Source: Fuerstiella sp.
Lineage (GTDB): Bacteria > Planctomycetota > Planctomycetia > Planctomycetales > Planctomycetaceae
NCBI GenBank assembly: GCA_022447225.1
Contig: JAKVAZ010000001.1
Span: 341,824 to 405,823 of the forward strand
Direction of reading: 5' to 3'
DNA: 64,000 bases
A model generated the notes under the pieces. It did no database searches and was not told where the DNA came from. It was given only the letters and a program-made list of their open reading frames with translations. The translations under genes and the position numbers were made by a program. Below are positions 4,069-64,000 of this stretch, piece by piece. Position 1 is the stretch's first letter. Each line of letters opens with the position of its first letter.

Positions 4069-4234
4069 TTAAACTCTGACCAACGGTACTCACAGTCTAC
4101 CATCGAATCAGCCACGGGAACATGCCGAAGTACGGATGCCGCAGTATGGACAATGGATTCGGTCCGTGCTGATGGGTTATCAGTGATTCCGTCCGGTGAT
4201 GACAGGTTTTGTAGGGATAATTCGGAGTACAGTC

Positions 4235-4319
4235 GTTATGTCAGCTGCAGTGCACACGGCGCCGATGGCGGGGCCATGTGCACTGCAGATGCCGGGTGGT
4301 GGCGTGCAGCAGACATAAC
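4235..4319. other. Nested alternative hairpins between DUF1080 and DUF1501
   Basis: GTTATGTC (4235-4242) pairs with GACATAAC (4312-4319), continuing after one mismatch as GCTGCA/TGCAGC. An alternative inner stem pairs CTGCAGTGCACA (4245-4256) with TGTGCACTGCAG (4277-4288). The two share bases, so they cannot both form completely. There is no T-run on either side, so it is not a classical terminator. It could be an RNA processing or attenuation structure between two genes of one transcript. Confidence 0.45.
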
Positions 4320-4333
4320 GGAGCCATTTTCAT

Positions 4334-5026
4334 CTAATGTTCCCTGATGCGAATATTGCGCCACGCCACGTCGAAGGGACCGGTTCCTTTTTTGATGCTG
4401 TGCACCTGCAGTCCAATGCGACCTTTTGGGTGAGTTTTGTAAATCCCTTCATCCGTGAGGTCTGCAATCTGTTCGCCATTGATCCACGTCTGGATTCGAG
4501 CACCCCTGGCAACGATGCGAAACCTGTTCCATTCGCCGTTTTTCATGTGGTTGTGAGCAGCATTGTTTTTTGGCTCGGGTGACAGCCATCCGCGCCCGGT
4601 AGCTTCTCCGTAGATGTAGCCGGATTGACCCGGACTGGCCTCAATCTCCACCTGTGGACCGTGAAACCGACCCAGACCGCTGTTTTTGTTCTTTCTCTGT
4701 TCTTCTGTCAGGTCTGCTTTCGTTTTCCCTCTTGAGCGAATCTGGCATCCTGAATTCAGCAGGTCGTGAACCTTGACTTCGAACTCCAGCTCGAAGTCTC
4801 CGTATTCCTGTTCGGATGCCAGAAATGTATTTGGACTGCCTTCAACCGTTTTGCCGTGAATTGTTCCGTTGACGACTGTGTATTGCGCTTTGCCGAGGTC
4901 ATCTCGCTTCCAGCCATCGAGAGTCTTGCCGTCAAACAAAGATTTCCAGCCATCTTCAGCAAAAGTCGAACCGGTCCCGTGGAAAATTAAAAATGCTGCC
5001 AGTGCAACACGGATGAGTAATTTCAT
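4334..5026 (-). CDS. DUF1080 protein (3-keto-disaccharide hydrolase family), secreted
   Basis: About 230 residues, consisting of a signal peptide (MKLLIRVALAAFLIFHGTGS, cleaved near FAED) and a single DUF1080 domain with a concanavalin-like beta-sandwich. Family landmarks are GWKSLFDGKTLDGWKRDD near the N-terminus, the FELEFEVKV strand, and the WNRFRIVARG...TWING block. DUF1080 proteins are abundant in planctomycetes and some hydrolyse 3-keto-glycosides; whether this one does is inference. The ATG at 5026 is preferred over the longer start at 5077 because AGGAA lies 8 nt upstream and the signal peptide begins there. It precedes the DUF1501 gene on the same strand by 265 bp, so the two may be co-transcribed. 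Confidence 0.88.
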   Translation of the reverse strand: MKLLIRVALAAFLIFHGTGSTFAEDGWKSLFDGKTLDGWKRDDLGKAQYTVVNGTIHGKTVEGSPNTFLASEQEYGDFELEFEVKVHDLLNSGCQIRSRGKTKADLTEEQRKNKNSGLGRFHGPQVEIEASPGQSGYIYGEATGRGWLSPEPKNNAAHNHMKNGEWNRFRIVARGARIQTWINGEQIADLTDEGIYKTHPKGRIGLQVHSIKKGTGPFDVAWRNIRIREH

Positions 5027-47099: not shown

Positions 47100-48314
47100 A
47101 TGAAAACTGTTCTCGTTATTCCTGATGGTGTCGCCGATGAACCACAACCGTCTCTGGATCATCAAACACCACTTCAGGCGGCGGTGCTGCCTCATATGGA
47201 TGAAGTTGCGAGGCTTGGTGTCGTTGGTCGAACGGACAACGTACCTGCCAGTATGCCTTCCGGAAGTGACGTGGGTACAATGTCACTGTTCGGATATGAC
47301 ACGCTTCGATTTCACACCGGTCGCGCTCCGATCGAAGCCGCTGCACAGGGCATTGAACTGGAACCGGGCGACTGGGCCATTCGCTGTAATCTGGTTACGA
47401 TTAACTCCGGGCGAATGCAAAGCTTTACAGCCGGTCAGTTTCCGAGTGTGGCCGCAGAACAGCTGATTGAATCCCTGCAGCGTGAGACTTGTGGCAGCGA
47501 ACACTGGAAATACCATGCTGGAGTGAGCTATCGAAATTTGCTCATTTATCGGGCACGAGGCGCGGCCGCCCCGTTCGACAATCAGACGCAAACCACTCCT
47601 CCGCACGACATTACTGATCTGAATATCGACGACTACCTGCCGTCCGGTCCGGGCAGCAGTGAACTGTTGTCTCTGATGGAAGACAGTCGGCGACTGTTTG
47701 CAAAATCTAATGCCAATGTCCGTCGACTCGACGCAGACGAACTGCCGGCTACTCAAACGTGGCTGTGGGGACAGGGAAGCCGTCCGGAGCTGGAACCATT
47801 TTTTGAACGTTACGGGGCGCGCGGTGCGGTGATCACGGCAGTCGATTTACTTCGAGGCATGGGGCGACTTATTGGCTGGGACGTTATCGAAGTCGATGGT
47901 GCCACCGGTTATCTGGATACCGACTACAAAGCCAAGGGACTGGCCGCAATAAAAGCTCTGGAGCGTGATGACCTTGATTTTCTGGTGGTTCACGTTGAAG
48001 CGACCGACGAAGCTTCTCATGAAGGCGACACTGACGCGAAATTGCAGGCGGTGCAGCAGATTGATAAACATATCGTCGGTCCGGTTCATGCGTGGCTGAA
48101 GCAGCAACAACAGTACCGTCTGTTGATCTGCCCCGACCATCCGACATATCTGAGAACGAAAACGCACAGCCATGGATACTGCCCGTTTGCAGCGTGTGGA
48201 AGCGGATTCGAACAGGATTCACATACGGAGTACCACGAAGTCACAGCGGCAGCGTCGGATCTGTCGTTTCCTGCGGGACATGAATTGATGGGCTGGTTTC
48301 AGCCGCGGGCATGA
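47100..48314 (+). CDS. apgM: 2,3-bisphosphoglycerate-independent phosphoglycerate mutase, archaeal type
   Basis: 404 residues of the ApgM family, alkaline-phosphatase superfamily, interconverting 2- and 3-phosphoglycerate in glycolysis and gluconeogenesis. The N-terminal VLVIPDGVADEPQPSLDHQTPLQAA holds a metal Asp; the nucleophilic Ser is in PASMPSGSDVGTMSLFGYD; the phosphate pocket is in FHTGRAPIEAAAQGI. The C-terminal HVEATDEASHEGDTDAK and LICPDHPTYLRTKTHSHGYCPF contribute the other metal ligands. The ATG at 47100 is clear. It is a separate unit from murEF, though on the same strand. Confidence 0.92.
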   Translation: MKTVLVIPDGVADEPQPSLDHQTPLQAAVLPHMDEVARLGVVGRTDNVPASMPSGSDVGTMSLFGYDTLRFHTGRAPIEAAAQGIELEPGDWAIRCNLVTINSGRMQSFTAGQFPSVAAEQLIESLQRETCGSEHWKYHAGVSYRNLLIYRARGAAAPFDNQTQTTPPHDITDLNIDDYLPSGPGSSELLSLMEDSRRLFAKSNANVRRLDADELPATQTWLWGQGSRPELEPFFERYGARGAVITAVDLLRGMGRLIGWDVIEVDGATGYLDTDYKAKGLAAIKALERDDLDFLVVHVEATDEASHEGDTDAKLQAVQQIDKHIVGPVHAWLKQQQQYRLLICPDHPTYLRTKTHSHGYCPFAACGSGFEQDSHTEYHEVTAAASDLSFPAGHELMGWFQPRA

Positions 48315-48592
48315 CAGATTCTGTTCACCGTGTACTTAAGGCATGTTGGCTGTCAGTTGTGACTTGAGTGGTTCATTGGCCGGTTTCCCCGGCGTGTTGG
48401 TTACCGACAGCCGGACCAGGGGAACGGGTCACCGGATCCACGACTCGAATTTTACCGTTTCATGAACAGGTCCGAAAAAAGTGTCCGATGGCGGAACCAA
48501 TCCGGTTGCCGTTATTTCAGGAGACGGCTCAGGCGGCCTTGATGTGGGGCGTCCCGGCACTGTCCTATTCCTCGTCCACCACCGACAATGTA
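48315..48592. other. Convergent intergenic gap
   Basis: The end-to-end space between apgM and the HAD gene. No gene and no clear terminator are seen. Confidence 0.3.
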
Positions 48593-49552
48593 CTAAATGA
48601 TTCCGAACACTGTTGCGACCTGACTCAAATCGGTGAGAAGGCGATCGGGACGAGTTGCCGAATCCTTCAGCAGTTTTGACCGTGCTTCGAGTCCTGTTTT
48701 CTCAGCGGCCAGCAAAGCTGTTCGCATTCCTATCGCCTTTGCCGGTTTCAAATCGGCTTCCATTCGACAACTGATGTGCAGAATTTGTTCCGGCAGAAAT
48801 CCGGCGGCTTTGAGTCGCTCCACCGTCAGTTCGAACAAAGACCGTGACGGTTTGCGGATTCCAAGTTCGTAGGAAAACAGGACGGCATCGGGATGAAACA
48901 TGGCAGCAAGTGGCGGGAGTTTGCCTTGTCGGGTCAGTGCACGCAACATCTGGGTAAATGAGAACACCTGACCATCTGCCAGCACGCCCTGCCGGATTTC
49001 GATTGCATGAAGATCCTGCATGGCCTGTACGGCACCCGGGCGAGCTTCGACGCCCTGCAGATTCGAGTGGAAGAAATAGGCCACTTTTTCACTGTACTGT
49101 CTGATATCTCCGTAAAAATTTTTATCGTAGCTGTAGTTTTTGTCGAACAGTCGTGTGATGATGGCTTCCCAGATGTCGACCAGGTCCGGGTCTGTCAGGT
49201 CGCCGTGGCGTTTGGTGGCCGCCATCGACAGACGCTTGTGATACCGCACGAAGATGTTGATCATCGACTTCCAGGGAGGACCCGGTTTGCGATACATGCT
49301 GTTCCACATGTTGAATTCATAGATCGTTTTCTCCAAAGCAACCTCAAGAGAAGTCTGCGGATCCGGCACCAGGCAAAACGTACCGCCTGTTGTTCGCAGC
49401 AATGTTCCGTAAACATCCCACAGAACAATCCGAATGCCGTCAAGCGGCTTGATGAACGGCGTCGCCTGAACGGCGACCGGCGGTGGCACACGGGGCCACA
49501 TCAGATCGCGATCATCCAGAAATTTCGCATATTCAGCGAGCGAGACAGCCAT
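48593..49552 (-). CDS. HAD-superfamily hydrolase
   Basis: About 319 residues. The nucleophile motif is RIVLWDVYGTLLRTTGG near residue 45, with DxYGT as in haloacid dehalogenase-like members. The cap region is large and helical. Motif III lies in DAVLFSYELGIRKPSRSLFEL (catalytic Lys). The expected late Asp motif appears as HISCRMEADLKPAKAIGMRT, where the usual HVGD is changed. A phosphatase or related hydrolase role is likely, substrate unknown. The ATG at 49552 is used; a TTG two codons before is the frame's first start. It is convergent with apgM. Confidence 0.83.
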   Translation of the reverse strand: MAVSLAEYAKFLDDRDLMWPRVPPPVAVQATPFIKPLDGIRIVLWDVYGTLLRTTGGTFCLVPDPQTSLEVALEKTIYEFNMWNSMYRKPGPPWKSMINIFVRYHKRLSMAATKRHGDLTDPDLVDIWEAIITRLFDKNYSYDKNFYGDIRQYSEKVAYFFHSNLQGVEARPGAVQAMQDLHAIEIRQGVLADGQVFSFTQMLRALTRQGKLPPLAAMFHPDAVLFSYELGIRKPSRSLFELTVERLKAAGFLPEQILHISCRMEADLKPAKAIGMRTALLAAEKTGLEARSKLLKDSATRPDRLLTDLSQVATVFGII

Positions 49553-49674
49553 AGACAAAAAAACACGTGCAACGGGGCGGGAGACTGAGACTCAAGGTTA
49601 GCTGCGTTTGCTGGAAAACCCGAACTCCGAATCCCGAATTTCGAAACAAATTTAAAACGTATAGCTTACGGCGC

Positions 49675-50835
49675 TCAACAACAGCCGGTGTCACTGCAGC
49701 AGTCTTCGCCCGGCAGCACGTCAGCCAGCCCCTTGGCGGTTTTTGTTTCCTGCGGACTTCGCAGTGCTTCCCGATGGCAGTCGAACTGTGGTGCCTCGTC
49801 CGGTGGAACCATCTCCGCCGGCTGAACTGGTGTGATCTGCGGCGCGTATGGTGCCCTGGTGTAGATGTTGAACGTTTTGTCACAGACGGCCATTCTCTTC
49901 CCGCGATGCAGGCGATGCCCGTCGTCGTCGACGACAGTCTTCCAGGGACCATTGTAGATCACGGCCTGACGGCGATCGAGGCACGGACCGTCTTTACCCT
50001 TCCATGCCTGAACCGTAAGGCTTCGAAACTCGATTCCATCGATCACAGCCCACGCTTTGTCCTGTCGTGTGAGAATCTCAGCACCATAGAATCCGGCGGC
50101 TGTGAACGCTTCAAGGAACGCATCTTCACGGAAGGCACCGCTGATACAACCACTCCACAATCGCGGGTCATCCTGCAGCGACCGAGGAACCTGTTCGTCG
50201 CTGACAATATCGCTGATGATTGCTCTTCCGCCCCGTCGCAGAACACGGAAGACTTCGCCAAACAGCTGTTCACGGTCGTCGTTTTTCACCAGATTCAGTA
50301 CACAGTTGGAAACGACGGCATCCATTGAATCCGAAGCGACAAGCGGTGACTCGCGACGCATACGTTCGGCTTCTTCTTCGGCCGCGAGCCAGTCAGATGC
50401 TGTATTAACAGGGTGAGTCTGCAGCCAGCGTTCAAAGAGTTCCAGGTTCAACTGCAGGTCCTGAATGCGGCCTTTGCGAAAATCGACGTTACGGTGGCCG
50501 ACTCTTTCAGCGACTTCTGTCTGGTATTGTCGGGCCAGTGCGAGCATGTCGTCATTCACGTCGACTCCCACCACGTATCCGGTCTGACCAACGACCTGAG
50601 ACGCGATGTAGCAAATCTTTCCTCCACCCGACCCAAGATCCAGGACGTGATCTCCCGGATTCAAATGTCTGGACGGGTCACCGCAGCCGTAGTCTCGATC
50701 GATGATTTCCTGAGGAATTGCTTTGAGATACTGAACATCGTAGTCGACAGGGCAACACAGAGAACTTTCAGCGGCCTGCGCCGCTTTGCTGTAACGATTT
50801 CGAACAGCCGAATCGACGTTTAACGATGCAGACAT
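49675..50835 (-). CDS. Arsenite methyltransferase-like (ArsM-type) SAM-dependent methyltransferase
   Basis: 386 residues. The SAM-binding motif is HVLDLGSGGGKICYIASQVVG near residue 64, followed by VGVDVNDDMLALAR. The three Cys positions used for arsenite binding in ArsM enzymes have counterparts: CC in SSLCCPVDYD, then VVSNCVLNLV, then WSGCISGAFRED. A C-terminal extension ends in EDCCSDTGCC, an extra vicinal-cysteine pair suited to thiol metal(loid) handling. The stop is TGA, followed two codons later by TAA. It probably methylates arsenite to less toxic or volatile forms, although another metal(loid) is possible. No arsR, arsB or arsC is adjacent. The ATG at 50835 is used. Confidence 0.85.
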   Translation of the reverse strand: MSASLNVDSAVRNRYSKAAQAAESSLCCPVDYDVQYLKAIPQEIIDRDYGCGDPSRHLNPGDHVLDLGSGGGKICYIASQVVGQTGYVVGVDVNDDMLALARQYQTEVAERVGHRNVDFRKGRIQDLQLNLELFERWLQTHPVNTASDWLAAEEEAERMRRESPLVASDSMDAVVSNCVLNLVKNDDREQLFGEVFRVLRRGGRAIISDIVSDEQVPRSLQDDPRLWSGCISGAFREDAFLEAFTAAGFYGAEILTRQDKAWAVIDGIEFRSLTVQAWKGKDGPCLDRRQAVIYNGPWKTVVDDDGHRLHRGKRMAVCDKTFNIYTRAPYAPQITPVQPAEMVPPDEAPQFDCHREALRSPQETKTAKGLADVLPGEDCCSDTGCC

Positions 50836-51051
50836 GAGTCGTTTGATTCCTAAGAATCATCCTGAAGCTGAGACGTGTCCGTGAACCGCTATCCTATCAA
50901 ATTTCATAAAACACGCGACGCTCTGGTCACCTGCGATCCTGCAATTGTGGTACAGAATGTTTATTTCCCGGTCGCCAGTCGACCACCGGGAATAAATGAA
51001 CGCACTCGCTTCGCCTGATTCCCGTTAGAACTTCGGAATGTGAGTGTGTGT

Positions 51052-52416
51052 TCACGGTGCTTTCGGAATCTCACGTCCATGCGGGTCGGCACTCGGTTGA
51101 TCCAGATCTTCTTCCAGCTGTCGCAGAATTTGGGGGCCGATAAAATGCTCCATCGTTTCAGCCGGATCGTGCAGATGATCTGAGGGCAGGTCAAAATTCT
51201 GATCCAGCCAGGATTCCCACAATCGATGTGCCCTCACCAGATCCTGCGCATAACGTTGCCCTTTTTCGCTCAGTTGAGCAGTGCCGTCAGCCATGACCAG
51301 TAGGCCACGATGTCCGAGCCAGTAGACCGCAATATGTGCGGCAAAACCGTTGCCGGCCAGTGTTCGGCACTCTGAAATCGATTCGGGGTGGATTGTTCCT
51401 GCTCTTTCCCGGCGACGGAACAGCGCCGCCAGTATGTCTTCGGCAGCGATACGTACTTTGAGTTGAACACTGCGTATCAGTCGGCCAAGGATTCCATATC
51501 TGGGAGCGACCAGAATCGCTGCCAGTAATTCGGCCCCCGCTGTCACGGCGGTGAGTCCGGCAGCTGAGGAATTCCATCTGAGGGCCAGAAAATATCCCAG
51601 TGTCGTGCAGCTGATACCACTCAGAACGGCAATCAGCAGCATGCGTTCCAGTCGGTCCGTGAGCATTCTGGCGATACACGCCGGCACGGTCAGCAGTGCC
51701 ACAACCAGTAAACCCACAACTTCCATTGCCGAAACAGTAACCAGAGCCACGATCGTCGTCATCAAATAGTGCATGACGGGAACACTAAAACCGAGAGTTG
51801 CAGCGAGAGTGACATCGAATGAAGTTAGCCGCAATTCCTTCCAGAACAGCACGAAAACGAGCACGGTGATCAGCAGTGCCGGTACGACCGTGTGTGTGGC
51901 TTCCGGCAACAGCCAGCCCATTGTTGGTACGAAATTCATTCCGGCAAATGCAAGATTACCAAACAACACGCAGTCGAGGTCCAGGTGAACTCCCTTTGCC
52001 TGTGACACCACTACCACGCCAAATGCAAACAGGGATGTGAACACGATACCAATGCTGGAATCTTCCGGCACCGAACCGGTGCGGTGAATCACCTGAGTCG
52101 CGACCGCCGTGACTACACCAGCCGCCAGTGCTCCCAGAAACATCGGAAGCGGTTCGATTCTGCCGGTCAACAGGTAAACGCAGGCCACACCGGCCAGAAC
52201 CGAGTGACTGAGCGCATCACCAAGCAGACTCATACGCCGCAACAGGAGAAGACAACCCACCAGTGCGCAGCCTGTTGCACACATGGCGCCGACGAACAAC
52301 GTACCGGCAGCATTCTCGACTGCCGGTTTTGGCTGACCGAGCCAGATGGCGATCCACGTCCATGCAGACTCGAACGGGACAGAAATCTGTTCGGCAGCCA
52401 GTACACAGGTGTTCAT
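51052..52416 (-). CDS. Metal ABC transporter permease fused to a DtxR/MntR-like regulatory domain
   Basis: 454 residues. The first ~290 residues are an ABC-3 family permease with eight or so hydrophobic segments (ALVGCLLLLRRMSLLGDALSHS, then VVGLLVVALLTVPACIARM). The C-terminal ~150 residues are soluble. They start with a winged-helix-like part (HIAVYWLGHRGLLVMADGTAQLSEKG) and end in RAHRLWESWLDQNFDLPSDHLHDPAETMEHFIG, which is the dimerization and metal-binding pattern of DtxR/MntR repressors. The same layout, permease YtgC joined to repressor YtgR, is known in Chlamydia. It overlaps the upstream permease gene by 4 bp (ATGA), so it is translationally coupled. It is last in the operon. Whether the regulator part is cleaved off, as in Chlamydia, cannot be seen. 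Confidence 0.88.
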   Translation of the reverse strand: MNTCVLAAEQISVPFESAWTWIAIWLGQPKPAVENAAGTLFVGAMCATGCALVGCLLLLRRMSLLGDALSHSVLAGVACVYLLTGRIEPLPMFLGALAAGVVTAVATQVIHRTGSVPEDSSIGIVFTSLFAFGVVVVSQAKGVHLDLDCVLFGNLAFAGMNFVPTMGWLLPEATHTVVPALLITVLVFVLFWKELRLTSFDVTLAATLGFSVPVMHYLMTTIVALVTVSAMEVVGLLVVALLTVPACIARMLTDRLERMLLIAVLSGISCTTLGYFLALRWNSSAAGLTAVTAGAELLAAILVAPRYGILGRLIRSVQLKVRIAAEDILAALFRRRERAGTIHPESISECRTLAGNGFAAHIAVYWLGHRGLLVMADGTAQLSEKGQRYAQDLVRAHRLWESWLDQNFDLPSDHLHDPAETMEHFIGPQILRQLEEDLDQPSADPHGREIPKAP

Positions 52417-53336
52417 GGAGACACCTCAGTACGATTTCCGGACTCTGCTGTCAGTAGCTCTTCAGCAGCGGCGGCGACTTCTTCCTCTGAAATTCTTCGA
52501 TTCCACAGCCAGCCGCGTCGGGGTGCAAACATCCACGAGATAATGAACAGAGTTGCGGATGTGAGCACCACCAGCGGTCCTGTCGGCATTTCGGCCATGT
52601 TGGCACTGAGCAGCGTTCCTGTCGCTCCGGACACGCCACCAATGCCGGCGGAGACAGTCATCATGTAAGAAAGTCGGTCTGTCCAGTATCGAGCCGCAGC
52701 TGCCGGGATGATCAACAGGGCGGCCGTCAGGACCACGCCCACTGCAGGAAGTCCGACAATCACGGTCACCGCCGTAAGAAACATCAACAGCAGGTCCAGA
52801 CCGGTGGCCGGCCATCCCTGTACGCGACAGAAAGATTCGTCGAAACTGAGCAGCTTAAGCTCTTTAAAGACCACCAGCACTACGATTGAACATCCGGCGG
52901 CCACCACGGCAATCTGCAAAACATCGCCGGTGAGCATGGTTGCTGCCCGGCCAATGATGAAGGACTCCAGGTCAGCACCCCGTTCGTTACGGTAGTTGTT
53001 TTGAATTGTCCGTGTGAGTGCGATTCCCAGTCCGTACGAGACACTGAGCACCGTTCCCAGAATTGCATCTTCCCGCAGACGGGATACGCGACGAAGGAAA
53101 GACATCAGGAAGGCTCCCGCCACTCCGGTTATCAGGGCACCGATCAGCAGGACAGTAATCGACCGACTCTGTGTGAGCAGGAATGCCATACACAATCCGG
53201 GCAGTGCTGCGTGAGCAATCACATCACCGGCAAGAGCGCGTCGTCGGAGGTATGCGAACGTTCCAACCAGGCCGGCGGTCACCCCCAGCAGAACCGTTCC
53301 GATGAGAACCAGTGATGTTTGAGTGAATACAGTCAA
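52413..53336 (-). CDS. Metal ABC transporter permease (ABC-3 family)
   Basis: 307 residues with about eight hydrophobic helices and the family motif FAYLRRRALAGDVIAHAALPGLCMAFLL near the N-terminus. AVGVVLTAALLIIPAAAARYWTD toward the C-terminus holds the conserved block of the permease. Together with the fused permease it would form a heterodimeric channel for Mn, Zn or Fe. The start is a TTG at 53336. It lies 64 bp after the ATPase gene and overlaps the fused permease by 4 bp. Two different permeases match the YtgC/YtgD arrangement. Confidence 0.9.
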   Translation of the reverse strand: MTVFTQTSLVLIGTVLLGVTAGLVGTFAYLRRRALAGDVIAHAALPGLCMAFLLTQSRSITVLLIGALITGVAGAFLMSFLRRVSRLREDAILGTVLSVSYGLGIALTRTIQNNYRNERGADLESFIIGRAATMLTGDVLQIAVVAAGCSIVVLVVFKELKLLSFDESFCRVQGWPATGLDLLLMFLTAVTVIVGLPAVGVVLTAALLIIPAAAARYWTDRLSYMMTVSAGIGGVSGATGTLLSANMAEMPTGPLVVLTSATLFIISWMFAPRRGWLWNRRISEEEVAAAAEELLTAESGNRTEVSP

Positions 53337-53400
53337 TTGTTGAGGGACAGCTTTAGTGTGAATCGAGTCATCTTGGGGGCCTTCACGTCAGGCAGGAAAT

Positions 53401-54183
53401 TTATTCACTTTCCCGTTGCATGCGCACAGCTTCTGACATCGTATCCAGAATTGACAGTCGACCGCGATAAGTTGCCTGAAGCGCTTCGGGACTGAACGTT
53501 GTTGCCACCGGTCCACTGGCAACAACCCGGACATTCAGCAGTACAACCTCATCGAAGTGTTCGGCTACTGTTCTCAGATCATGATGTACAACGACGATTG
53601 TGCGTCCGGAGTCACGGAGTGTTTTCAACAAATCAAAAATGATCCGCTCCGTAGCGGCATCAACGCCTGCCATCGGTTCATCCATGAAATACAAATCAGA
53701 ATTCTGGGCCAGCGCCCGAGCGAGAAATACCCGCTGCTGCTGACCTCCGGACAACTGCCCGATCTGCCGTTTCTCATAGTCCTGCATTCCAACACGTGCC
53801 AGGCACTCGCGTGCACGCTGACGGTGTTTTGATTTCGGTCGACGGAACCAGCCCAGTTCGCCGTAGGTTCCCATCAACACTGTTTCCATTACATTAATTG
53901 GAAAGTCCCAGTCGACTGTTTCTCTCTGAGGCACATAACCGATTCGCCGGCGCTGTCGGTGCACCGGCTTTCCCCATGCTGCAACCCGACCGCTTGTCAC
54001 CGGAACCAGACCCATCACGGCTTTGATCAGGGTGCTTTTTCCGGCTCCGTTTGGCCCTACAATGGCAATCAGCCCGGGTTTGCAGAGTGTCAGGTCGACA
54101 TTCCACAACACAGGCCGGCGGTCATAGGCCACGGTCATGTCGTGGATATCAAGAATCGCGTGCGAATCGGCCGTCGCGTTCAC
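53401..54183 (-). CDS. Metal ABC transporter ATP-binding protein
   Basis: 260 residues, the cytoplasmic motor of the transporter. Walker A is GPNGAGKST near residue 44, the Q-loop lies in [13 protein letters not shown], the signature is [16 protein letters not shown], Walker B is [13 protein letters not shown], and the switch His is in [19 protein letters not shown] is typical of the Mn/Zn/Fe type (ZnuC, TroB, MntA). The start is a GTG at 54183, which overlaps the TGA of the binding protein in a 4-bp GTGA, so translation is coupled. Confidence 0.94.
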
Positions 54184-55169
54184 GGTGTTTCCTGATTCAA
54201 CTGTTGAACGTTCAGGGCACTGGCGATTTGCTGAATATTGTGCACGACTGCACCTGCCAACGTTTCCTCGGGCGTTCCGGCCGGTCCGGCGGTATCCGAA
54301 TAAAGCGTGCCGCCTACCTCAAGATGATGCTCGCGCGATTCACACGCAGAAATCAGGGCCAGAATATTGCGGTCCGAGACACTCTGCTCCGTGAAGATGG
54401 CCGAAATCTTGGAGTCGACTAACAACGTCGCCAGATCGTTAATCCGTTTGAGCCCGGGTTCACTTTCTGTGGACAATCCCTGGACCGCTTCAACTCGAAA
54501 ATTAAAGGTACGCGCGAAGTACTGAAACGCGTCGTGTGCAGTCACCAGAACGCGATGTTTCGCAGGAATGTCTGCAAACGTTATTCTGCCGCTCTCCCGT
54601 GTGGATTCCATCAATTGCTGAAACTCTGCAGCGGCCGCACCGTATTTGTCCGCATGTGTCTTGTCGATTCTTGCGAATTCTTCAGCAAGCCAGTCTCCGC
54701 ATTTGCCCCACAGCTCCAAATCAAACCAGACATGAGGATCGACTGCGCCGTCAGCGTGAAGCAGATGATCTGAAAATTCCTTTTCCAGAATTTCAGTGAC
54801 TTTGATTACGGGAATACCCCGATTCACCAGGCTATCAAGGGCGCCTTCAAACTGAGCTTCCAAGTGCAGGCCCGAATAGACAACAACGTCTGAATTTGTC
54901 AGCACATTGATGTCCTGAGGCGATGGGGTGTAGAGGTGCGGGTCGACGGCCGGACCGTCCATGATGGCTGTCACCTCAACATATTCGCCGCCGATTTGCC
55001 GCACTAGATCCTTGACAATATTCGAAGTGCAACCGACTTGCAGTTTATTTGAATCAGCTGCGGATTCTGTCGTAGTGGCACCGGGTGGTTCAGCAGGTGT
55101 ACAACCGGAAACAGCTGCTACACAACCGAACGCCAGTGCGGCGATTGGCATGATCTGTTTTGTATGCAT
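54180..55169 (-). CDS. Metal ABC transporter substrate-binding lipoprotein (ZnuA/TroA type)
   Basis: 329 residues. The lipobox AAVSGCTPA (Cys at about residue 23) gives lipid anchoring. The cluster A-1 fold is marked by metal ligands in [12 protein letters not shown] (first His), [12 protein letters not shown] (second His), [14 protein letters not shown] (Glu) and LYSDTAG (Asp). That two-His, Glu, Asp set fits Mn(II), Fe(II) or Zn(II); no His-rich zinc loop is present between the first two ligands, which mildly favours Mn or Fe. It is the first gene of the operon, with a candidate operator 72 bp upstream at 55241-55253. Confidence 0.92.
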
Positions 55170-56738
55170 AGCAGTTTTGAATACCCAAATTCATTTTTTT
55201 GTTCAATCAAAATTCAGAAAACAAAGCTGTTTTCGTTTACATATGCAGCATATTTCATTTTCAGTCGTTTGGGACAACGGCCACTGATGACAGTTTCAGG
55301 GTAGATTGAAAATCTGAAAAGGTGTGAACCGGAATGAAAAACAGGCCTTCGACCGACCGGACTCTGTCGAGGACAACTCCGTACTGTTGACAGGGGACGA
55401 CCTCAGTGTGAGAGCAGATGGTCGTACGACGGACTGTCTCTATGATTTGATGCAATAGCCAGCAGTTACATAGAGGCAGATATTCCCCCGTATGCGGACT
55501 AATTTCCCGGGATTCCCCGCGGAGTTGTGACCTGAGAACTTCTGTTTTTTCCAGTCACACAATACGAAGACGTGACCGTGGTGATTCTCTGCCCTGCCGT
55601 GTTGGGATGAGCGAGGTGGCTTCTTCTTGTGTTGCTGACTTGTATACGACTGGGGTTTGGACCTTCCGTATCTGTTCCGACAAATACGTATTCATGCCGG
55701 CAGGTCTGTCATCGTGGCCCTCGAAGTTAAACGTGATTTGTTTGTGACCGATTTCCAGGCAGTGCAAAATGTTCACCTGCAGGTCACCTATCTGAGGCTA
55801 GGGCTTCCCCGACGTTCATACATAGTCATGGATGGTGTCTTAGTTCAGGACGGTGAGGATTCGGATCTGCATTGTGGACTGCACGTCGGGGCGTGACAGA
55901 GAAGAATGTAGAACTCTCGGCAGTCAACTGAATGCAGTGCTGATATTTGGGAAAGATAATTGAGTCGCCCAGTTTGGGGGTGTTGGGAAAACGGATTCAG
56001 GTCCCCAGATCGTGGAAAGGACTTAACGGCGTAAATCCGTTCCTTACCAGTGGACTGAAATTTGTTGCCCCGAGTAACCGATTTTCCTAAGACGCGAAAC
56101 CATGATGCAACCGTTCGTCTAGTCCCGACTATGCTGACCGGCAACTGGCCTGTAGCAGAGAACGCGATCGGATGGGGCGAAATCTTTCTAGAAAAATTGC
56201 TGGAAGCAATTCCGGCACCAGGCTGACGCGTGCCAGTCATTCTTCACTGTGATTCTGCGGTATAAAAGTGGAACACTAATGCACTTACACTGCGTCATCC
56301 GGTTTTCAAGACGGTTGTCAGCTACGAGATTCGATCGTGGCAGCGGTCATGAATTCAACTTAGGACCGTAGATTCTGAAGAGGAACTCATCAGGAAACAC
56401 ATCCAGCAGAGCGTCTCACTTTTGAGAAGATCTTCGCTTGTAAATCGGTCGATCTTCCCGGAACGTTTCCCGTGCACCTGATTTGTGTGGGTCGAACGGA
56501 CGGAGATGTTTCGTCTCTGCATCACTGGTGACAAGAGATCCGGCTAATCCACGATCTCCCGTACAATCCCGCATTTCACCCAGGTCTTCCTTGCTTAGAC
56601 ACGGTAAGGATTGGAATACTGAGAAATACTGGGCTGTCTAGGCGCGATAGTTTCGTTTTGTCGTGTCCGGAAATTTATGTTTTACGTCTTATTTTAGAAC
56701 GGAATCAGGTCGGACGTCTCTGCACTGGGTGAGCAAAA
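55170..56738. other. Long divergent non-coding region between the metal-transport operon and the synthase
   Basis: 1.57 kb. Short open frames occur (the longest about 131 codons, 55845-56240) but none resembles a known family or has a good start signal. No tRNA cloverleaf was found. The part next to the binding-protein gene (55190-55260) is clearly AT-rich. The part near 56670-56720 is also AT-rich and could hold the promoter of the synthase. Confidence 0.4.
55241..55253. promoter_or_regulatory. Candidate operator: 13-bp palindrome upstream of the metal-transport operon
   Basis: ATATGC-A-GCATAT is a perfect inverted repeat in an AT-rich patch, 72 bp before the ATG of the binding protein. The operon encodes a DtxR/MntR-like domain, so autoregulation through this site is a reasonable guess. 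The sequence does not match the textbook DtxR or MntR boxes. Confidence 0.35.
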
Positions 56739-59700
56739 GTGTCATCACGAACACTGGAGCCGGTAGCGGTGATCGGTATTGGGTGCCGATTTCCAGGGGC
56801 TGGCAATGCCGACGAATACTGGGGAATGATCAAGCGGGCAGGAACGGCGATTTCGCCATTGCCTGAGTCACGTTTGGACCGTGACCTTTACTACCATCCG
56901 GAGAAAGGAAGAATCGGCAGCACCTATACTGCGCTGTCGGGTCTCGTCCCTGAAACTCCGTTTGATCATAATCGCTTTCCGATTCCAGGTGACCTGTTGT
57001 CGTCATACGACAGTGTCCATTTGCGGATGCTTGAAGTCTGTTGTGAGGCGGTGACGAGCGCGGGCATGGACCCTCTGTCCGGACTTGGCGGTTCGCGAAC
57101 CGGCGTCTATATCGGTAATACCAGCGGCAGTACACTGGCTGGTGATCTGACGTTCGGCACATTATCGACGGAAGTCGTTTCAAGACTGCGTGATTCCGAA
57201 TTCGCAGATCTGCCAGCCGATATGCGCGAGCGAGCAATTCAGCGCACGATTGCTCAAATTCAAGCGAACTCGCCCGTACGTAATGCGAATGGCGGACCGA
57301 ATGTCGAAGCGCACGACGTATCGGTACTGGTTAGTCGCGCTATGCAACTCGACGGTCCGGCAGTGGCCGTGGACGCGGCATGTGCTTCTGCCCTGATTGC
57401 GACCGCACAGGCTGTTTACGCCCTGCAGCGCGGCTATCTCGATATGGCAATTGCCGGTGGGTGTTCATTCAGTAAATGGTTCGCCCTGATTCTGTTTTCG
57501 CAGGCTCAGTCAATCAGCGGTACCGGTACACGTCCTTTCGACCAGGATGCTGACGGACTGATCAGTTCGGACGGCTATGCGGCGATTGTTTTGAAGCCAC
57601 TGTCGCGGGCCCTGGCTGATGGCGATTCGATTCTGAGCGTCATTCGGAATCTGGCGGTTGGGTCTGACGGCAAGGGGAAGAGTCTTTGGGCGCCTCGGCG
57701 AGAAGGTCAGATTCACGCCGTCCGCAGAGCCTACAATGCCGAAGTCAGTCCGGGCAGCCTGCAATACATTGAGTGTCATGCCACGTCGACGCAGGTTGGT
57801 GACGCAACGGAAATCTCAGCGCTCAGCGAAGCCATGCACGGAGCATTTCCGCCAGGACATAAAATTCCGATCGGCAGTGTAAAAGGCAACATTGGTCACA
57901 CCCTGGAATGTGCGGGTCTGGCCGGCGTTTGCAAGACCATCCAGGCGCTACGACACGGTGTGATTCCTCCGCAGCCATCGATTAAGGAACTTAATCCGGA
58001 CATCGCGTGGGACGACATTCCTTTCTATGTTCCTACATCAGCACAGCCCTGGCCCGGAGTGAATCAGCAGGGAGTCCGTCGGGCGGCTGTGAATGCCTTT
58101 GGAATTGGAGGTTTGAATGCACATGTCGTTCTTGATGACCGTCCTGAGCCTCAGCGCATGGTTCATGCGGCCGTCCCTGCAGATATTCAGTCTGCAGATG
58201 TTTCAGCGGACGACGACCTGATCGCGGTGATCGGCGTCGGAGTGATCGCTCCCGACGCTAACAACCAGGAAGAATTCTGGTCACTGATTTCCAGCGGGAA
58301 ATCGGCGGTCAGCGAAGTGACCGATGATCGCTGGGTGTCTGCACATTATCACACATCGGAACCGGGCCCGCGTTGTTCTTCTTCTAAACTTGGCGGCTTC
58401 GTCCGCAACTTTGAGTTCAACTGGAAAAAACACCGGATTCCGCCCAAGCAAATTCAAAACAGTAATCCTTTGCAGTACATGCTGCTGGATGCTGCTGATC
58501 AGGCTTTCATCGATGCAGGTCTCGGCGACATGGAGTTTCCGAGAGAACGGGCGAGCGTTGTTGTTGGTACGATGTTTGGAGGCGACTTTTCCAGTCACAT
58601 GCAGGTGGGCCTTCGACTTCCTGTGGTCCAGCGTGAGTTGAAAAAAGCTCTGATGGCCGATGGACTCGATGAAACCCAGGCTGACTCCATTGTTGCCCGT
58701 TACCGGGAACACGCGTTAAATATTTATCCGGCCGTTCGTGATGAAACGGGAAGCTTTACCAGTAGCACGCTTGCATCACGGCTGACCAAATCATTTGATC
58801 TCATGGGAGGTGCCTGGGCGATTGATGCCGCGGACGTGTCATCATTTGTTTGCCTGCGGGCTGCTGCTGATTTGCTGCTGACCGGTTCGTCTGACATGGT
58901 GATGTGCGCGGCGGGCCAGCGAAGTATGGATGTTTCCTCTTTCGAACTGATGGATCTGCAGGGCCGTTTGTCGGGTGATCGTGTTGCTCCGGCCTTCGAT
59001 GCAAATCAGAACGGAGGCGTGCCGGGTGAAGCTGTCGGTATCGTCCTGCTGAAGCGACTCGCGGATGCTGAACGGGACGGAGATCGAATTCGCGGTGTGA
59101 TTCGTGGCATTGAAGTTTCGTTTACTGATCAGAACCGTGCCGACGGAATTGCGAAGAACCTTAAACGACTGATGCCAGCCGATGGTCAGGCGGCAAGGAT
59201 AGATGCCCTCGAAACCGCACGTGTCTGCAGTCCTGCACTGGATGCCGCTGAAATCGAAGGCATGCAGCGCGCCCTGCCTGATCAGCCTGCGCCACTGGCA
59301 CTGGGTTCAACCTCAAAGCAGATTGGTTACTCCCTGAGTGCCAGTGGAATGATTTCAGTCATCAAAGCAATGCTGGAACTCGAACACCAGTCGATTGCTC
59401 CTGTTGCTGCTGATGCTGAACCGTCGGAACTTGTGCGCAGGAGCGGCAGTCAGTTCACACTACCCCATCAGTTGTCACCGCTTGGCAGTCAACTGCCTCC
59501 GGGGGCCGGACGGATCATGGTCAGCAACATGGATCCGTCAGGAGCCATCGGACATCTCATCGTGGAAGGTGTGAAGGAGCGTATGAATGTGTCGGCTCCG
59601 CTTTCTGCGGCGACACCACCGACAATGACTCAAACGCCTGCTGAGGAACCGGACCGGTTTGAGATTCTGCGGGTTGCTGCTCCCTCAACATCTGAACTTG

Positions 59701-62700
59701 AGGCAGTTGTTGCTGCCGGTGTTGCCAGCCGAAATTCCGGATTTGGGTCTGACGACGGGGTTCGTCTGGGAATTGTGGCAACAGGTCCAGACGACCTCAC
59801 TCGAAAACTTCCTGCCACCAGAATGGCCCTGGCCGACTGTCAGCGGCGTCACATTTTGGGTGACAACGGAATTCTGATTGCTGAGCCTGGCCGGCAGGGA
59901 AAACATTTGGCGGTCGTTTTCTCGGGACAGGGAGCGCAGTATACAGGAATGCTGGCTGACTGGATCCGGACGTCTGTCGCTGTCCAGCAGTTCATTGAAC
60001 AGGCCAACACGGTTTTGGCTTCACTGAATCTGCCGTCATTCGAATTTCTGACACAGGACACAGCTGCTGATCTTGGCAACCACGTACTCAACACACAGCT
60101 GGCGGTCCTGCTGGCGGATCTGGCTGCCTGGGCTGCGTTGACGGAAGCTGGTGTTCGGCCTGATTTTATTGCAGGACACAGCTATGGCGAATTCCCCGCA
60201 CTGGTTGCGGCCGGTGCCTGGGACCTGAATGCTGCTCTGCAGGCGACGATTCACCGAACAAATGCGGTCGAAGGAGCAGGAGTGTCGAATGCTGCGATGC
60301 TGTCCACGACAGCGGAACCGGCAACTGTCACGTCGTTGATTCAAAAGCTGCAGCTGCCGTGTGACATCGCATGTTATAACGCTCCCGATCAAACAATCAT
60401 TGCCGGACGTATTTCGGATTTGGATCAGCTGAGTGAAGAGCTGAAGACGGGTGGATATGCCAGCCGAACGATTCGCGTGCCAATGCCTTACCACAGCCGA
60501 ATGATGCAGGCGGCTCAGGCGCCTCTGGAGGCTGCTCTTCAGCAAATTCCGATCAGCACTCCTGCGGTTCGGTTCATCAGCTGTTGTTCCAGTCAGCCAC
60601 TTGAGACTCCGGACGAGATTCGGGCCAGCCTGGTGGCTGAACTGACACATCCTGTACGCTGGGAAACGCTTGTCGAAACACTGATCGCCAGCGACACGGG
60701 TGTGGTCTTTGAAAGCGGTCCGCGGCAAATTCTGACACGTCTGAACAGACGAATTATCGGAGCACGTCCCGTACTTCATCTCGCTCTGGACGCGCGTCCA
60801 GGGCATGCCAGAGAGCAACAGGCTCGAATCAGGCTTTTGCTGGAAATGTTTCAGGAGACTCCGTCAGCAGCCACGCAGCACTCTGCGGAGTCGGTTCTTT
60901 CCGGGCCACCTTCGGTGCCAGTACCTGTTGATTCAGTTTCTGCGCCTGTAAATGCACCGGAAGTAACCGCATCAACTCAACGCGTCAATCACACTCCGTC
61001 GGAGAAAACCTCCATGACTGATGACCGGAAGAAAGGTCGAATTATCTGGGTCGATGCGACGGAGCGACGCCGATCGAAGATGCGCGAAGCAGCTCAGGCA
61101 AAGGCTGCCGGCCGACCTGTCGCCAACAGGACGAGCGACAATGGTTTCGGGGCCAGGAGTAACGGAGCTCCTGCTTCCGTCAGCGGCAACGGAGTTCCTG
61201 TATCGGGCAGCGGCAACGGAGTTCATCCGGCGAGTCGGACCGTGCAGACGGGACCTGCTGATCCCCATACAGGCAATGGTGTTTCTTCTGCTGTGTCCAT
61301 TGCTGCTGTACCGTCCATCGAACCGCAGGTGGCTGGTACCGCACCGCAGGCTGAGAAGTCAACTCTGTCTCAGCCTGTTGCGGCAGCGCAGGTTTCGTCG
61401 GAGATGGAACTTAGTCGCGACAAGCTGGAATCCTTTGTACTGGATTACGTGGTGGAACAAACGGGCTATCCTCCGGAACTGGTTGAGCTGGATGCGAACC
61501 TGGAGGCGGACCTGGGTGTTGACAGCATCCGGAAAGCTCAGCTAATGGGTGAAATTTCCGAAACATTTCAAATCCAGCAGGCCAGGGAGCACATTAACGA
61601 TCTGTCACTGGATGACTTTCCGGATCTGAGTTCCATCATCGATTTTTTCCTTAGAATCTGTGAATCACCGGATGCGGTCCAGACTGCTGCTTCAGTTGTT
61701 CCCCAGGTGTCTTCGGTGCCTCAGGTACCCGACGTCCCTTCGGTGTCTTCACCTGCGTTTGTTTCGCCGACAGTCCAGGATGTTCTACCGAATCAGGACG
61801 ACGTAACGGCTGCAGGCAGGTCGATTGATCGGGAAGACCTGGCCAATTTTGCCGTCAGGTTTGTGGTCGAACAAACCGGATATCCGGAAGAGCTGGTGGA
61901 ACTCGACACGAATCTGGAAGCAGACCTTGGCATTGACAGTATTCGCAAGGCGCAGTTGCTGGGTGAAATCGCTGAAAATTATGAAATGACAGGTCTGGCA
62001 GGTCAGATTACCGATCTGTCACTTGACGATTTTCCAACGTTGAATTCGATTGTGGACTTCTTCGTCGGCCAGGCGGGGTCCGGGGCCGCAGCGGAACCGC
62101 TCCCCGTTCCATCAGGCCATACGCCACCTTCCACGATGGCCCCTGTCGCTCCTGCGATTCAGGCACCGACTGCTCCGACTGTTGCTATGCCGGCGATTCC
62201 GGCAGTGGCAGTACCTGTGACTCCAATGGTCCCCGTAGTTGAGACTGCACCCAAACCGGTTCCGGCAATACCGGTGGCATCAACCGACGTGAGTGTGTCG
62301 AAAGATGAACTGATGACATTCGCAATTGCTTTTGTCGTCGAACAGACCGGCTACCCGGAAGAGCTGGTTGAACCGAATGCCGACCTGGAGGCCGACCTGG
62401 GTATCGACAGCATTCGCAAAGCGCAGCTGCTTGGCGAAATTGCAGAACACTATCAGATGACAGGTCTGGCAGGTCAGATCACCGATCTGTCACTGGATGA
62501 TTTTCCGACGCTGGAGGCAATTACCGATTTTTTTTTCGCAGCTGCAGGACGCACAACTGAACACGGAGCAGACACAGTAATCGACGATGTTGCGGCACCC
62601 GGACTCGATACATCAACAACCAAAAATACCGTCCCCGCAGTTGCGGGTTCGGCGGATCTGACATCTGTCGATCGACTGCCGGAGAACGATCGGATCATGC

Positions 62701-64000
62701 AGCGGTATATTGTCCGCTCCATACCCGAATCCCTTCGTGAGGCTTCCGATGCCGTCGGGACCACGTTTGCCGGTAAGGTCGTGATTCTGGGAGAAGATCG
62801 TGATGCTCAGGCACTCGTCCAACGGTTGCAGTCTGCAGGCAGTCTGGTCGAGATCCTTCCGGCATCCATTCATGCTCAATCAGCGGTTGCAGCGTTTGAA
62901 ACAAGCTGGAAACAACAGGCTGTTGATCATTTGATTGTAATGACTTCAAACGGTGATCAGCCGGCCGACTGGGATACACTGCGTGATCAACAACTTCTGG
63001 TTCCGTACTTTGTGATCCAGAAATGGGTGCAACTCCGAACACAACTTTACGGAAAAGATTCTCCACCGGCAGGAAATCTGGCGGCAATCACACGTCTGGG
63101 TGGCGATTTTGGCATTGGCGGTCGTATTGGCAACGTTTCGGGTGCAGGACTCGCCGGGCTATTCAAAGCAATTATTCGGGAGCACGCTGAGCTCAATGCA
63201 ACGGTTCTCGACGTTCCGGCTGACGAACCCGTACGACTTGTGATCGATGCTTTGTGTCGGGAAGCGGCGGCCGCTGGACCGCACGTGGAAATCGGCTGCA
63301 TTCGCGGCAAACGGCATCGCCTGCACATGATCCCGCAGCCCGCTTCCGGCATCTGTCCGTCCGACGTCAGTCTGGCCGGACCGTGGGTCGTCACGGGCGG
63401 GGCTCGTGGCATCACTGCGCGTATCGCAGCAGCACTCGGTCGTTCATCCGGTGTTCGCCTGCATTTGGTTGGTCGCAGTTCGGAATCGGAAGTGGATCCA
63501 GCCTGGGTTGCGTTGGATGAAACCGGACTGGGAGAACTGAAGAAGGACGTGATGAGAAAGGCGGCAGCTGAAAACCGTAAACCAATCGACGCCTGGAATT
63601 CATTAAACAGCAAAATTACTCTGGCAAAATCGCTCCGGAAACTTCGTGAACAGGGATTGGATGTAACATACCACGCATGTGATGTGAGTCAGCGTGACTC
63701 TGTTGGCAATATGCTGCAGGCTGTTCGGCAAATGCACGGGCCAATTACCGGAGTCATTCACGGTGCCGGTGTCGAAGCGGCTGCTCGTTTTGAACGCAAG
63801 CAGGCCGATTCGGTGCGTCTGACAGTGACATCGAAAGTTGACGGGGCTCGCTGGCTGTGGGAACACACTGCGAACGACGACCTGTCGTACTTTGTGTGCT
63901 TCGGTTCCACCAGTGGCCGATTCGGTGGACTTGGTCAGACTGATTATTCTATGGCGTCCGATCTGCTGTGTCGTATGGGTTGGCAGTTTGGGATTGAGCG
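56739..64000 (+). CDS. Giant multidomain polyketide/fatty-acid synthase: KS - degenerate KS - AT - ACP x3 - KR (3' end outside window)
   Basis: An open frame of 2420 codons without stop. Its start is a GTG at 56739 with GGTGAG about 6 nt before it. Domains in order: KS1 (residues ~6-465) with Cys215 in DAACASAL, His347 in ECHATSTQVGD and His387 in KGNIGHTLECAG, all intact. KS2 (~485-890) is degenerate: Asp699 stands where the Cys should be (IDAADVSS) and Tyr864 where the last His should be (SKQIGYSLSASG). The AT domain (~1050-1350) has FSGQGAQYTGM and Ser1148 in GHSYGEF. Three ACPs have phosphopantetheine serines at 1596, 1734 and 1891 in DSIRKAQL. The KR begins near 2215 (VVTGGARGIT) and continues to the window edge. 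The set resembles PfaA-type PUFA/secondary-lipid synthases, with the chain-length-factor-like KS in the same chain. The product is unknown. Confidence 0.92.
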   Translation, partial: MSSRTLEPVAVIGIGCRFPGAGNADEYWGMIKRAGTAISPLPESRLDRDLYYHPEKGRIGSTYTALSGLVPETPFDHNRFPIPGDLLSSYDSVHLRMLEVCCEAVTSAGMDPLSGLGGSRTGVYIGNTSGSTLAGDLTFGTLSTEVVSRLRDSEFADLPADMRERAIQRTIAQIQANSPVRNANGGPNVEAHDVSVLVSRAMQLDGPAVAVDAACASALIATAQAVYALQRGYLDMAIAGGCSFSKWFALILFSQAQSISGTGTRPFDQDADGLISSDGYAAIVLKPLSRALADGDSILSVIRNLAVGSDGKGKSLWAPRREGQIHAVRRAYNAEVSPGSLQYIECHATSTQVGDATEISALSEAMHGAFPPGHKIPIGSVKGNIGHTLECAGLAGVCKTIQALRHGVIPPQPSIKELNPDIAWDDIPFYVPTSAQPWPGVNQQGVRRAAVNAFGIGGLNAHVVLDDRPEPQRMVHAAVPADIQSADVSADDDLIAVIGVGVIAPDANNQEEFWSLISSGKSAVSEVTDDRWVSAHYHTSEPGPRCSSSKLGGFVRNFEFNWKKHRIPPKQIQNSNPLQYMLLDAADQAFIDAGLGDMEFPRERASVVVGTMFGGDFSSHMQVGLRLPVVQRELKKALMADGLDETQADSIVARYREHALNIYPAVRDETGSFTSSTLASRLTKSFDLMGGAWAIDAADVSSFVCLRAAADLLLTGSSDMVMCAAGQRSMDVSSFELMDLQGRLSGDRVAPAFDANQNGGVPGEAVGIVLLKRLADAERDGDRIRGVIRGIEVSFTDQNRADGIAKNLKRLMPADGQAARIDALETARVCSPALDAAEIEGMQRALPDQPAPLALGSTSKQIGYSLSASGMISVIKAMLELEHQSIAPVAADAEPSELVRRSGSQFTLPHQLSPLGSQLPPGAGRIMVSNMDPSGAIGHLIVEGVKERMNVSAPLSAATPPTMTQTPAEEPDRFEILRVAAPSTSELEAVVAAGVASRNSGFGSDDGVRLGIVATGPDDLTRKLPATRMALADCQRRHILGDNGILIAEPGRQGKHLAVVFSGQGAQYTGMLADWIRTSVAVQQFIEQANTVLASLNLPSFEFLTQDTAADLGNHVLNTQLAVLLADLAAWAALTEAGVRPDFIAGHSYGEFPALVAAGAWDLNAALQATIHRTNAVEGAGVSNAAMLSTTAEPATVTSLIQKLQLPCDIACYNAPDQTIIAGRISDLDQLSEELKTGGYASRTIRVPMPYHSRMMQAAQAPLEAALQQIPISTPAVRFISCCSSQPLETPDEIRASLVAELTHPVRWETLVETLIASDTGVVFESGPRQILTRLNRRIIGARPVLHLALDARPGHAREQQARIRLLLEMFQETPSAATQHSAESVLSGPPSVPVPVDSVSAPVNAPEVTASTQRVNHTPSEKTSMTDDRKKGRIIWVDATERRRSKMREAAQAKAAGRPVANRTSDNGFGARSNGAPASVSGNGVPVSGSGNGVHPASRTVQTGPADPHTGNGVSSAVSIAAVPSIEPQVAGTAPQAEKSTLSQPVAAAQVSSEMELSRDKLESFVLDYVVEQTGYPPELVELDANLEADLGVDSIRKAQLMGEISETFQIQQAREHINDLSLDDFPDLSSIIDFFLRICESPDAVQTAASVVPQVSSVPQVPDVPSVSSPAFVSPTVQDVLPNQDDVTAAGRSIDREDLANFAVRFVVEQTGYPEELVELDTNLEADLGIDSIRKAQLLGEIAENYEMTGLAGQITDLSLDDFPTLNSIVDFFVGQAGSGAAAEPLPVPSGHTPPSTMAPVAPAIQAPTAPTVAMPAIPAVAVPVTPMVPVVETAPKPVPAIPVASTDVSVSKDELMTFAIAFVVEQTGYPEELVEPNADLEADLGIDSIRKAQLLGEIAEHYQMTGLAGQITDLSLDDFPTLEAITDFFFAAAGRTTEHGADTVIDDVAAPGLDTSTTKNTVPAVAGSADLTSVDRLPENDRIMQRYIVRSIPESLREASDAVGTTFAGKVVILGEDRDAQALVQRLQSAGSLVEILPASIHAQSAVAAFETSWKQQAVDHLIVMTSNGDQPADWDTLRDQQLLVPYFVIQKWVQLRTQLYGKDSPPAGNLAAITRLGGDFGIGGRIGNVSGAGLAGLFKAIIREHAELNATVLDVPADEPVRLVIDALCREAAAAGPHVEIGCIRGKRHRLHMIPQPASGICPSDVSLAGPWVVTGGARGITARIAAALGRSSGVRLHLVGRSSESEVDPAWVALDETGLGELKKDVMRKAAAENRKPIDAWNSLNSKITLAKSLRKLREQGLDVTYHACDVSQRDSVGNMLQAVRQMHGPITGVIHGAGVEAAARFERKQADSVRLTVTSKVDGARWLWEHTANDDLSYFVCFGSTSGRFGGLGQTDYSMASDLLCRMGWQFGIE
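61400..62545. repeat. Three tandem acyl carrier protein domains
   Basis: Within the giant synthase, ACP1 (~61410-61650), ACP2 (~61830-62065) and ACP3 (~62305-62540) are direct repeats. ACP2 and ACP3 are nearly identical in protein over about 75 residues (FVVEQTGYPEELVE..., MTGLAGQITDLSLDDFPTL), while ACP1 is more distant. Pro/Val/Ala-rich linkers join them. An uninterrupted run of nine Ts at 62528-62536 encodes Phe residues at the end of ACP3. Confidence 0.88.

Follow-up and report, generated by a model that had tools for sequence, protein, structure and literature searches.

This work concerns a window of 64,000 nucleotides (the whole stretch of DNA that was analysed) from a Fuerstiella sp. 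of the Planctomycetaceae, in which a metal uptake operon encodes a permease with a C-terminal tail related to DtxR/MntR-type regulators. As described in a first-pass annotation of the DNA, four minus-strand genes form one operon for a binding protein, an ATPase and two permeases, one of which carries the tail. The TroA-like substrate-binding protein of the ZnuA family (54180-55169; PF01297, E 1.7e-63) has Treponema TroA as its nearest solved relative (E 8.7e-53). It is followed by the ATPase (53401-54183; PF00005, E 5e-30), whose best NCBIfam match, below the cut-off of that model, is a manganese/iron ABC ATPase, by a tail-less first permease of 307 amino acids (52413-53336; ABC-3, E 3.6e-60) and by a second permease of 454 amino acids (51052-52416), which matches both ABC-3 and PF02742 and ends in the DtxR/MntR-type tail. 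The overlapping starts noticed earlier are present at 54180-54183 (GTGA) and 52413-52416 (ATGA). With a ZnuA-type binding protein, an ATPase and ABC-3 permeases in one operon, the system is an ABC-3 (Tro/Mnt/Znu) importer built from the same protein families as TroABCD, MntABCD and PsaBC. Its metal is most likely manganese, with iron or zinc being possible, a preference taken from family names only, the binding protein being closest to TroA. The genome to which the window belongs (5.43 Mb, 97% complete) contains at E 0.001 two ABC-3 permeases and a single PF02742 domain, which is that of the fusion.

The fused permease consists of four segments, all on the minus strand. The ABC-3 permease domain comprises residues 40-301 (51514-52299; E 1.5e-48). 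A connector of invariant length, PRYG...AED (residues 305-327; 51436-51504), spans the distance between the last membrane helix and the first ligand position. It overlaps with a region of winged-helix fold and decayed DNA-recognition sequence (residues 309-383; 51268-51492), whose fold is predicted by AlphaFold2 and which has no PF01325 match. The metal-binding and dimerisation domain Fe_dep_repr_C (PF02742, E 5.2e-21) occupies residues 384-452 (51061-51267). The fusion is 90% identical to its counterpart in the metagenome-assembled genome (MAG) of a close Fuerstiella relative, hereafter the sister, and 58% identical to that of another Planctomycetaceae MAG; the tail alone is 88% identical between window and sister. 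The model of the full-length fusion was poor (mean predicted local distance difference test score, pLDDT, 50) and usable for the tail part only. Its best fold match was PsaBC, of which the matched chains have 258-290 residues and, unlike the fusion, no sensor tail.

The metal-binding half of the tail is complete. In SloR, the metal ligands are H76, E80, C123 and H125 at one site and D7, E99, E102 and H103 at the other, according to the available text on this regulator (PMC9253540). The aligned residues of the window tail are H, E, D, H and D, E, E, H, so that all eight positions hold possible ligands, and the domain has both the PF02742 match and the ligand positions of sites 1 and 2. Among 37 second-permease tails (SloR numbering), H76 is present in all and H95, E102 and H103 are each present in 36; E99 is variable (E in 23/37). 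The 36 first-permease tails have H at position 76 in 31 cases, keep E102-H103 in 33 and carry D (22) or H (9) at the position of H95. E80 is invariant in both groups, but the motif used for finding the tails requires it. The tail of the stretch L133 was omitted from these counts because the search motif was not found in it. Pfam models were applied to samples of 25 of the 37 second-permease tails, 30 of the 36 first-permease tails and 30 of 61 free MntRs, and PF02742 matched every one of them. From the free set, L061, L084, L086, L092, L093 and one of two frames of L099 had been excluded before counting; L084 and L086 are ordinary MntRs with PF01325, L093 and L099 are of another kind and L061 is a cut first-permease tail. 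For the one pair window and sister, the ratios of non-synonymous to synonymous substitutions (dN/dS) are 0.056 for the metal domain, 0.092 for the permease and 0.191 for the helix-turn-helix (HTH) part; by this measure the metal domain is under purifying selection and appears to be the most constrained segment of the fusion. Moreover, a tryptophan follows the HRL motif (HRLWE) in 35/36 and 35/37 tails but in only 1/61 free proteins, although the search motif also allowed L, V, I and A at this position. Its near confinement to the tails points to a tail-specific contact.

The DNA-binding half presents a different picture. PF01325, the HTH model of the DtxR family, did not match the window tail at E 0.1; at the same threshold it matched none of the 25 second-permease tails, one of the 30 first-permease tails and all 30 free planctomycete MntRs. 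Thus, the DtxR/MntR-like domain of the first-pass annotation stands for its metal and dimerisation half, while its DNA-binding half was not recovered. The mean identity in the HTH region is 22-25% among tails versus 53% among free MntRs, and that of the metal domain is 48% versus 66%, which gives ratios between the two regions of 0.46 and 0.51 in the tails and 0.80 in free MntR. The helix at the recognition position of the window protein (residues 358-369, FAAHIAVYWLGH) is hydrophobic for the most part. A recognition-helix motif, which was derived from the free proteins, occurs in 51/61 of these and in none of the 36 first and 37 second tails. AlphaFold2 models of three sequences nevertheless show a first helix that is long, two short ones and a wing of two strands, with block means of 86-93 pLDDT over tail residues 21-90. 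In fold comparisons, MntR and DtxR (Z 8.2-8.8) and MarR proteins match the winged helix of the tail model about equally well. Taken across the phylum, the DNA-recognition half has apparently decayed in the tails examined, while the predicted winged-helix fold survives.

The connector between membrane and metal site is of fixed length. Between the conserved PRxG that closes the last membrane helix and the first metal-ligand position lie 23 residues in 72/73 tails and 22 in the remaining one, whereas the stretch from this ligand across the HTH part to the H ranges between 60 and 108. For the window protein, the prediction places most of the connector within one helix (residues 309-339). The constancy of the connector next to an HTH region of changing length is what would be expected of a domain exerting push or pull on the membrane part; it does not resemble a linker open to proteases.

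The genomic setting would also be compatible with an action of the tail at the promoter. The sister has an intact free MntR in a frame of 230 amino acids (L128, 6727-7416). The corresponding locus of the own genome, which lies outside the window, retains only fragments of mntR (G000:C20:9653-10013, L160): most of the HTH-coding part is gone, and there are further deletions and frame breaks. That the free gene is merely missing from the assembly was rejected because its flanks, which are 88% and 80% identical to those of the sister, are present around the wreck. The tail coexists with free MntR in relatives, and the free mntR gene is decayed in the genome under study. Upstream of the operon lies a conserved block of 33 bp (55180-55212, minus strand; 97% identical to the sister MAG) with an MntR-type dyad, TTTTGATTGAACAAAA, at 55197-55212; the only other sizeable upstream match to the sister is one piece of 50 columns with 76% identity. 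The dyad TTTTG-N6-CAAAA was found in 11/38 upstream regions, compared with a mean of 0.03 in 300 shuffled sets. A longer operator pattern had only this one exact match in the own genome, and allowing one mismatch yielded 16 matches versus 11 for the reversed control, so that weaker matches mean little. A second type of dyad, TGTAG-N6-CTACA, is located upstream of the operons in L067, L070, L073 and L078 (4/38 upstream regions, none in 300 shuffled sets) and is perhaps the site of another regulator.

The persistence of the MntR-type dyad in a genome without free MntR may mean either that the loss is recent or that something still reads the predicted site. The tail is a candidate for the latter, but a poor one because of the HTH decay. 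In a manner resembling YtgR, it could be released by cleavage, or translated from an internal start, and act as a metal-dependent repressor of the operon in place of the decayed MntR. The architecture is that of YtgCR, a fragment of which represses its own operon in Chlamydia according to the account available to us (PMC5599777); furthermore, no intact DtxR-family domain other than the tail was found in the own genome, the free mntR there is wrecked, an MntR-type operator has been retained, and DtxR and MntR are among the matches of the predicted winged-helix fold. However, the tail has no match to an HTH family, its recognition-position helix is mostly hydrophobic and the connector is rigid. 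The sister, with its intact MntR, has the 88% identical tail, which gives no sign of a new DNA-binding role, and its operator is equally imperfect, so that retention may reflect merely a recent loss. We therefore regard a released repressor as rather unlikely. That the tail binds the operator while still attached to the membrane is very improbable: the predicted operator and the winged-helix fold would allow it, but the same HTH decay applies, and a loop of only a few residues ahead of the tail helix would leave the domain little reach.

The tail is widespread among relatives. PF02742 is present in 230 of the 392 genomes of the phylum set, and the first-permease tail profile (E <= 2.2e-26, frame of at least 427 amino acids) is present in 66 of the 392, among which the permease part was confirmed only where an operon was read. 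Within the family set of 61 genomes, 55 have a match to the window tail (E <= 1.8e-16); the frames span 334-962 amino acids save one of 268 amino acids that is cut at a contig end. Three or more PF02742 matches occur in 49/61 family genomes, and 41/61 have a separate match at E <= 6e-30, which lies in a frame of 225-291 amino acids in 40 cases. Relatives usually bear tails on both permeases, with a free MntR alongside. Among 47 operon stretches with at least one permease read, both tails are intact in 20, the first is absent and the second intact in 5, the first is degenerate and the second intact in 5, the first is intact and the second degenerate in 1, and in 3 (L089-L091) the first is intact and the second lacks a metal domain; one stretch (L133) has no intact tail and 12 were read in part, including L085, whose second permease is truncated by the end of the stretch. 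As the stretches were picked from PF02742 hits in long frames, the presence of at least one intact tail in 46/47 is a biased figure. The relatives of the window form a series from a ligand-less, degenerate first tail (L122, L123) to a first permease without any tail (L004/L083, L005, L103, L124 and the window).

Several variants were encountered in the course of this survey. Winged-helix-like tails without a metal domain occur inside and outside Planctomycetota (second permeases of L089, L090 and L091; L104, 3036-4118). The second-permease tails of L075 and L077 are about 100 residues longer, perhaps through an extra FeoA/SH3-like domain, and the first tails there are degenerate. In L099 (frame 2850-4520) and L093 (3801-4700), a DtxR metal domain and FeoA repeats stand behind a membrane-like stretch with the same type of connector and without an ABC-3 match; PF01325 is absent in L099 and weak in L093. 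These proteins may represent a form of the tail that is anchored in the membrane without a permease. In another genome of the same genus (G344, L076), both permeases are tailed and no free DtxR-family frame was found.

The phylogeny of the fused domain was calculated against free planctomycete MntRs, as the first-pass annotation had envisaged, from 73 columns and 116 of 134 rows, with 43 of the 61 free sequences and no chlamydial rows; the tree is unrooted and its bootstrap unsettled. All free MntRs lie on one side of a branch with support of 100/99, apart from all tails, so that the tails do not give the impression of having been copied recently from local MntRs. The window is placed among the second-permease tails (98/95), which form one group bar two exceptions, while the first-permease tails split in two groups; neither kind of tail is one clade. 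Related tails also exist outside the phylum. A first-permease tail on an Azospirillum plasmid can be aligned with those on planctomycete first permeases (hhalign 95.8%, E 8e-9), although it has lost the ligands and has no PF02742 match at E 1; it lies alongside a divergent mntR. One Deinococcus second permease has a short tail that aligns with the HTH part (hhalign 90.7%, E 1.3e-6). On these grounds, the idea of a tail specific to the Planctomycetes-Verrucomicrobia-Chlamydiae (PVC) superphylum was rejected, and the earlier suggestion of an old PVC solution is not supported. Tails of Paracoccus and Halomonas look similar by eye, but no Pfam model supports the likeness, and a plasmid-borne permease of Bacillaceae is, with 292 amino acids, too short for a tail. 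MntC of Bacillus subtilis may also be a long protein.

The tails without ligands raise the possibility that the domain is a structural or docking module, which pairs the permeases, holds the ATPase or passes metal to a client, does not regulate transport and uses its ligands for stability. The related Azospirillum tail and the second-permease tails without a metal domain (L089-L091; Deinococcus) would be in line with such a role, as would the fact that the single surviving tail of the window cannot pair with a first-permease tail. The strongly conserved ligand set and the constraint on the metal domain, the highest in the fusion, speak against it, and we consider this explanation unlikely.

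How far does the comparison with Chlamydia extend? Both systems combine a metal ABC permease with a C-terminal DtxR-family domain with conserved ligands, in an operon with a binding protein and an ATPase, and the likeness in architecture seen by the first-pass annotation, including the complete ligand set, is borne out. However, in the ytgABCD operon it is YtgC that is fused and whose fragment binds DNA, as stated in the published descriptions available to us (PMC7755916; PMC5599777), on which, rather than on sequences, the comparison is based. In the window, the fusion is on the fourth gene and not on the third, the first-permease position; in Deinococcus, the best counterpart of its first permease is the first one and that of its second permease the second one. 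In addition, the window tail has a decayed DNA-recognition half, and a free mntR is kept in the sister. The idea of the same layout is thus not supported, and a released repressor is disfavoured by the decayed DNA-recognition half, by the length-invariant connector and by the many relatives that keep a separate MntR. The parallel with Chlamydia extends to architecture and fails for gene position, the DNA-binding half and taxonomic scope. With the free regulators MntR, DtxR, SloR and DR2539 the tail shares the metal and dimerisation domain, the ligand positions and the winged-helix fold; it differs from them in being attached, in the lost HTH sequence and in the tryptophan of HRLWE, and it stands apart from free planctomycete MntRs in the tree. 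A literature search limited to open-licence PMC papers found no planctomycete permease-DtxR fusion among the entries listed and the openings of their abstracts.

We favour, with slightly better than even confidence, the explanation that the tail of this TroA/MntABCD-type importer, with its metal sites kept and its DNA recognition lost, acts as a feedback brake in place, that is, by trans-inhibition. At high cytosolic metal, the metal would bridge the first tail helix and the metal domain; as the first tail helix is predicted to be a direct, rigid continuation of the last membrane helix, the resulting shift could lock the permease or block the ATPase. The identity of the metal, its binding and the braking step are all inferred here. 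A precedent is the importer MetNI, which is described as being inhibited by methionine bound at its regulatory domains (PMC12357092). The proposed logic would be the same, with a cytoplasmic sensor domain on an importer that binds the substrate and stops uptake, a likeness that concerns mechanism only; MetNI senses methionine, whereas the window has a repressor-derived metal sensor fused to the permease.

Several points weigh against a brake. To our knowledge, trans-inhibition domains sit on the ATPase and not on the permease. DtxR domains work as dimers, and the first-permease tail has been lost here, so that the dimer partner is missing. The HTH region is still somewhat constrained (dN/dS 0.19, one pair) and keeps its predicted winged-helix fold. 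No second intact DtxR-family domain was found in this genome, in which an MntR-type operator persists, as would likewise be expected if the tail were a repressor. Some tails outside the phylum are without any metal domain. Finally, in L133 (G409) the first tail is degenerate, the second permease has none and a divergent free MntR adjoins the operon, which indicates that the tail is dispensable.

As regards the surroundings of the operon, Rfam gave no match at gathering thresholds within 48000-64000, and hence no known metal riboswitch was found there. Downstream, a minus-strand gene (49678-50835) encodes an ArsM-like arsenite methyltransferase (NCBIfam NF040538, 327.9 bits, cut-off 500). An apparent gene-poor gap at 55.3-64 kb was rejected, as this stretch is a frame running off the window: on the plus strand, 56739-63998 is open for at least 2420 amino acids, continues beyond the window end and reads as a ketosynthase/acyltransferase with three acyl-carrier repeats, probably resembling a polyunsaturated fatty acid synthase. 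The own genome also has two Fur-family genes.

The control of metal importers is generally attributed mainly to repressors acting at promoters. A repressor-derived sensor on the permease, with its ligands kept and DNA reading lost, would mean a direct product feedback on metal uptake. For the phylum as a whole, it is a serious possibility, in which our confidence falls somewhat short of even, that one or two MntR domains have been domesticated on a manganese-type importer, where they no longer read DNA and gate transport allosterically in response to cytosolic metal, that YtgR is a released or re-purposed brake, and that this Fuerstiella lineage, having lost its free MntR, relies on the brake alone. 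A brake of this kind would provide a testable ancestral function for the chlamydial YtgCR fusion.

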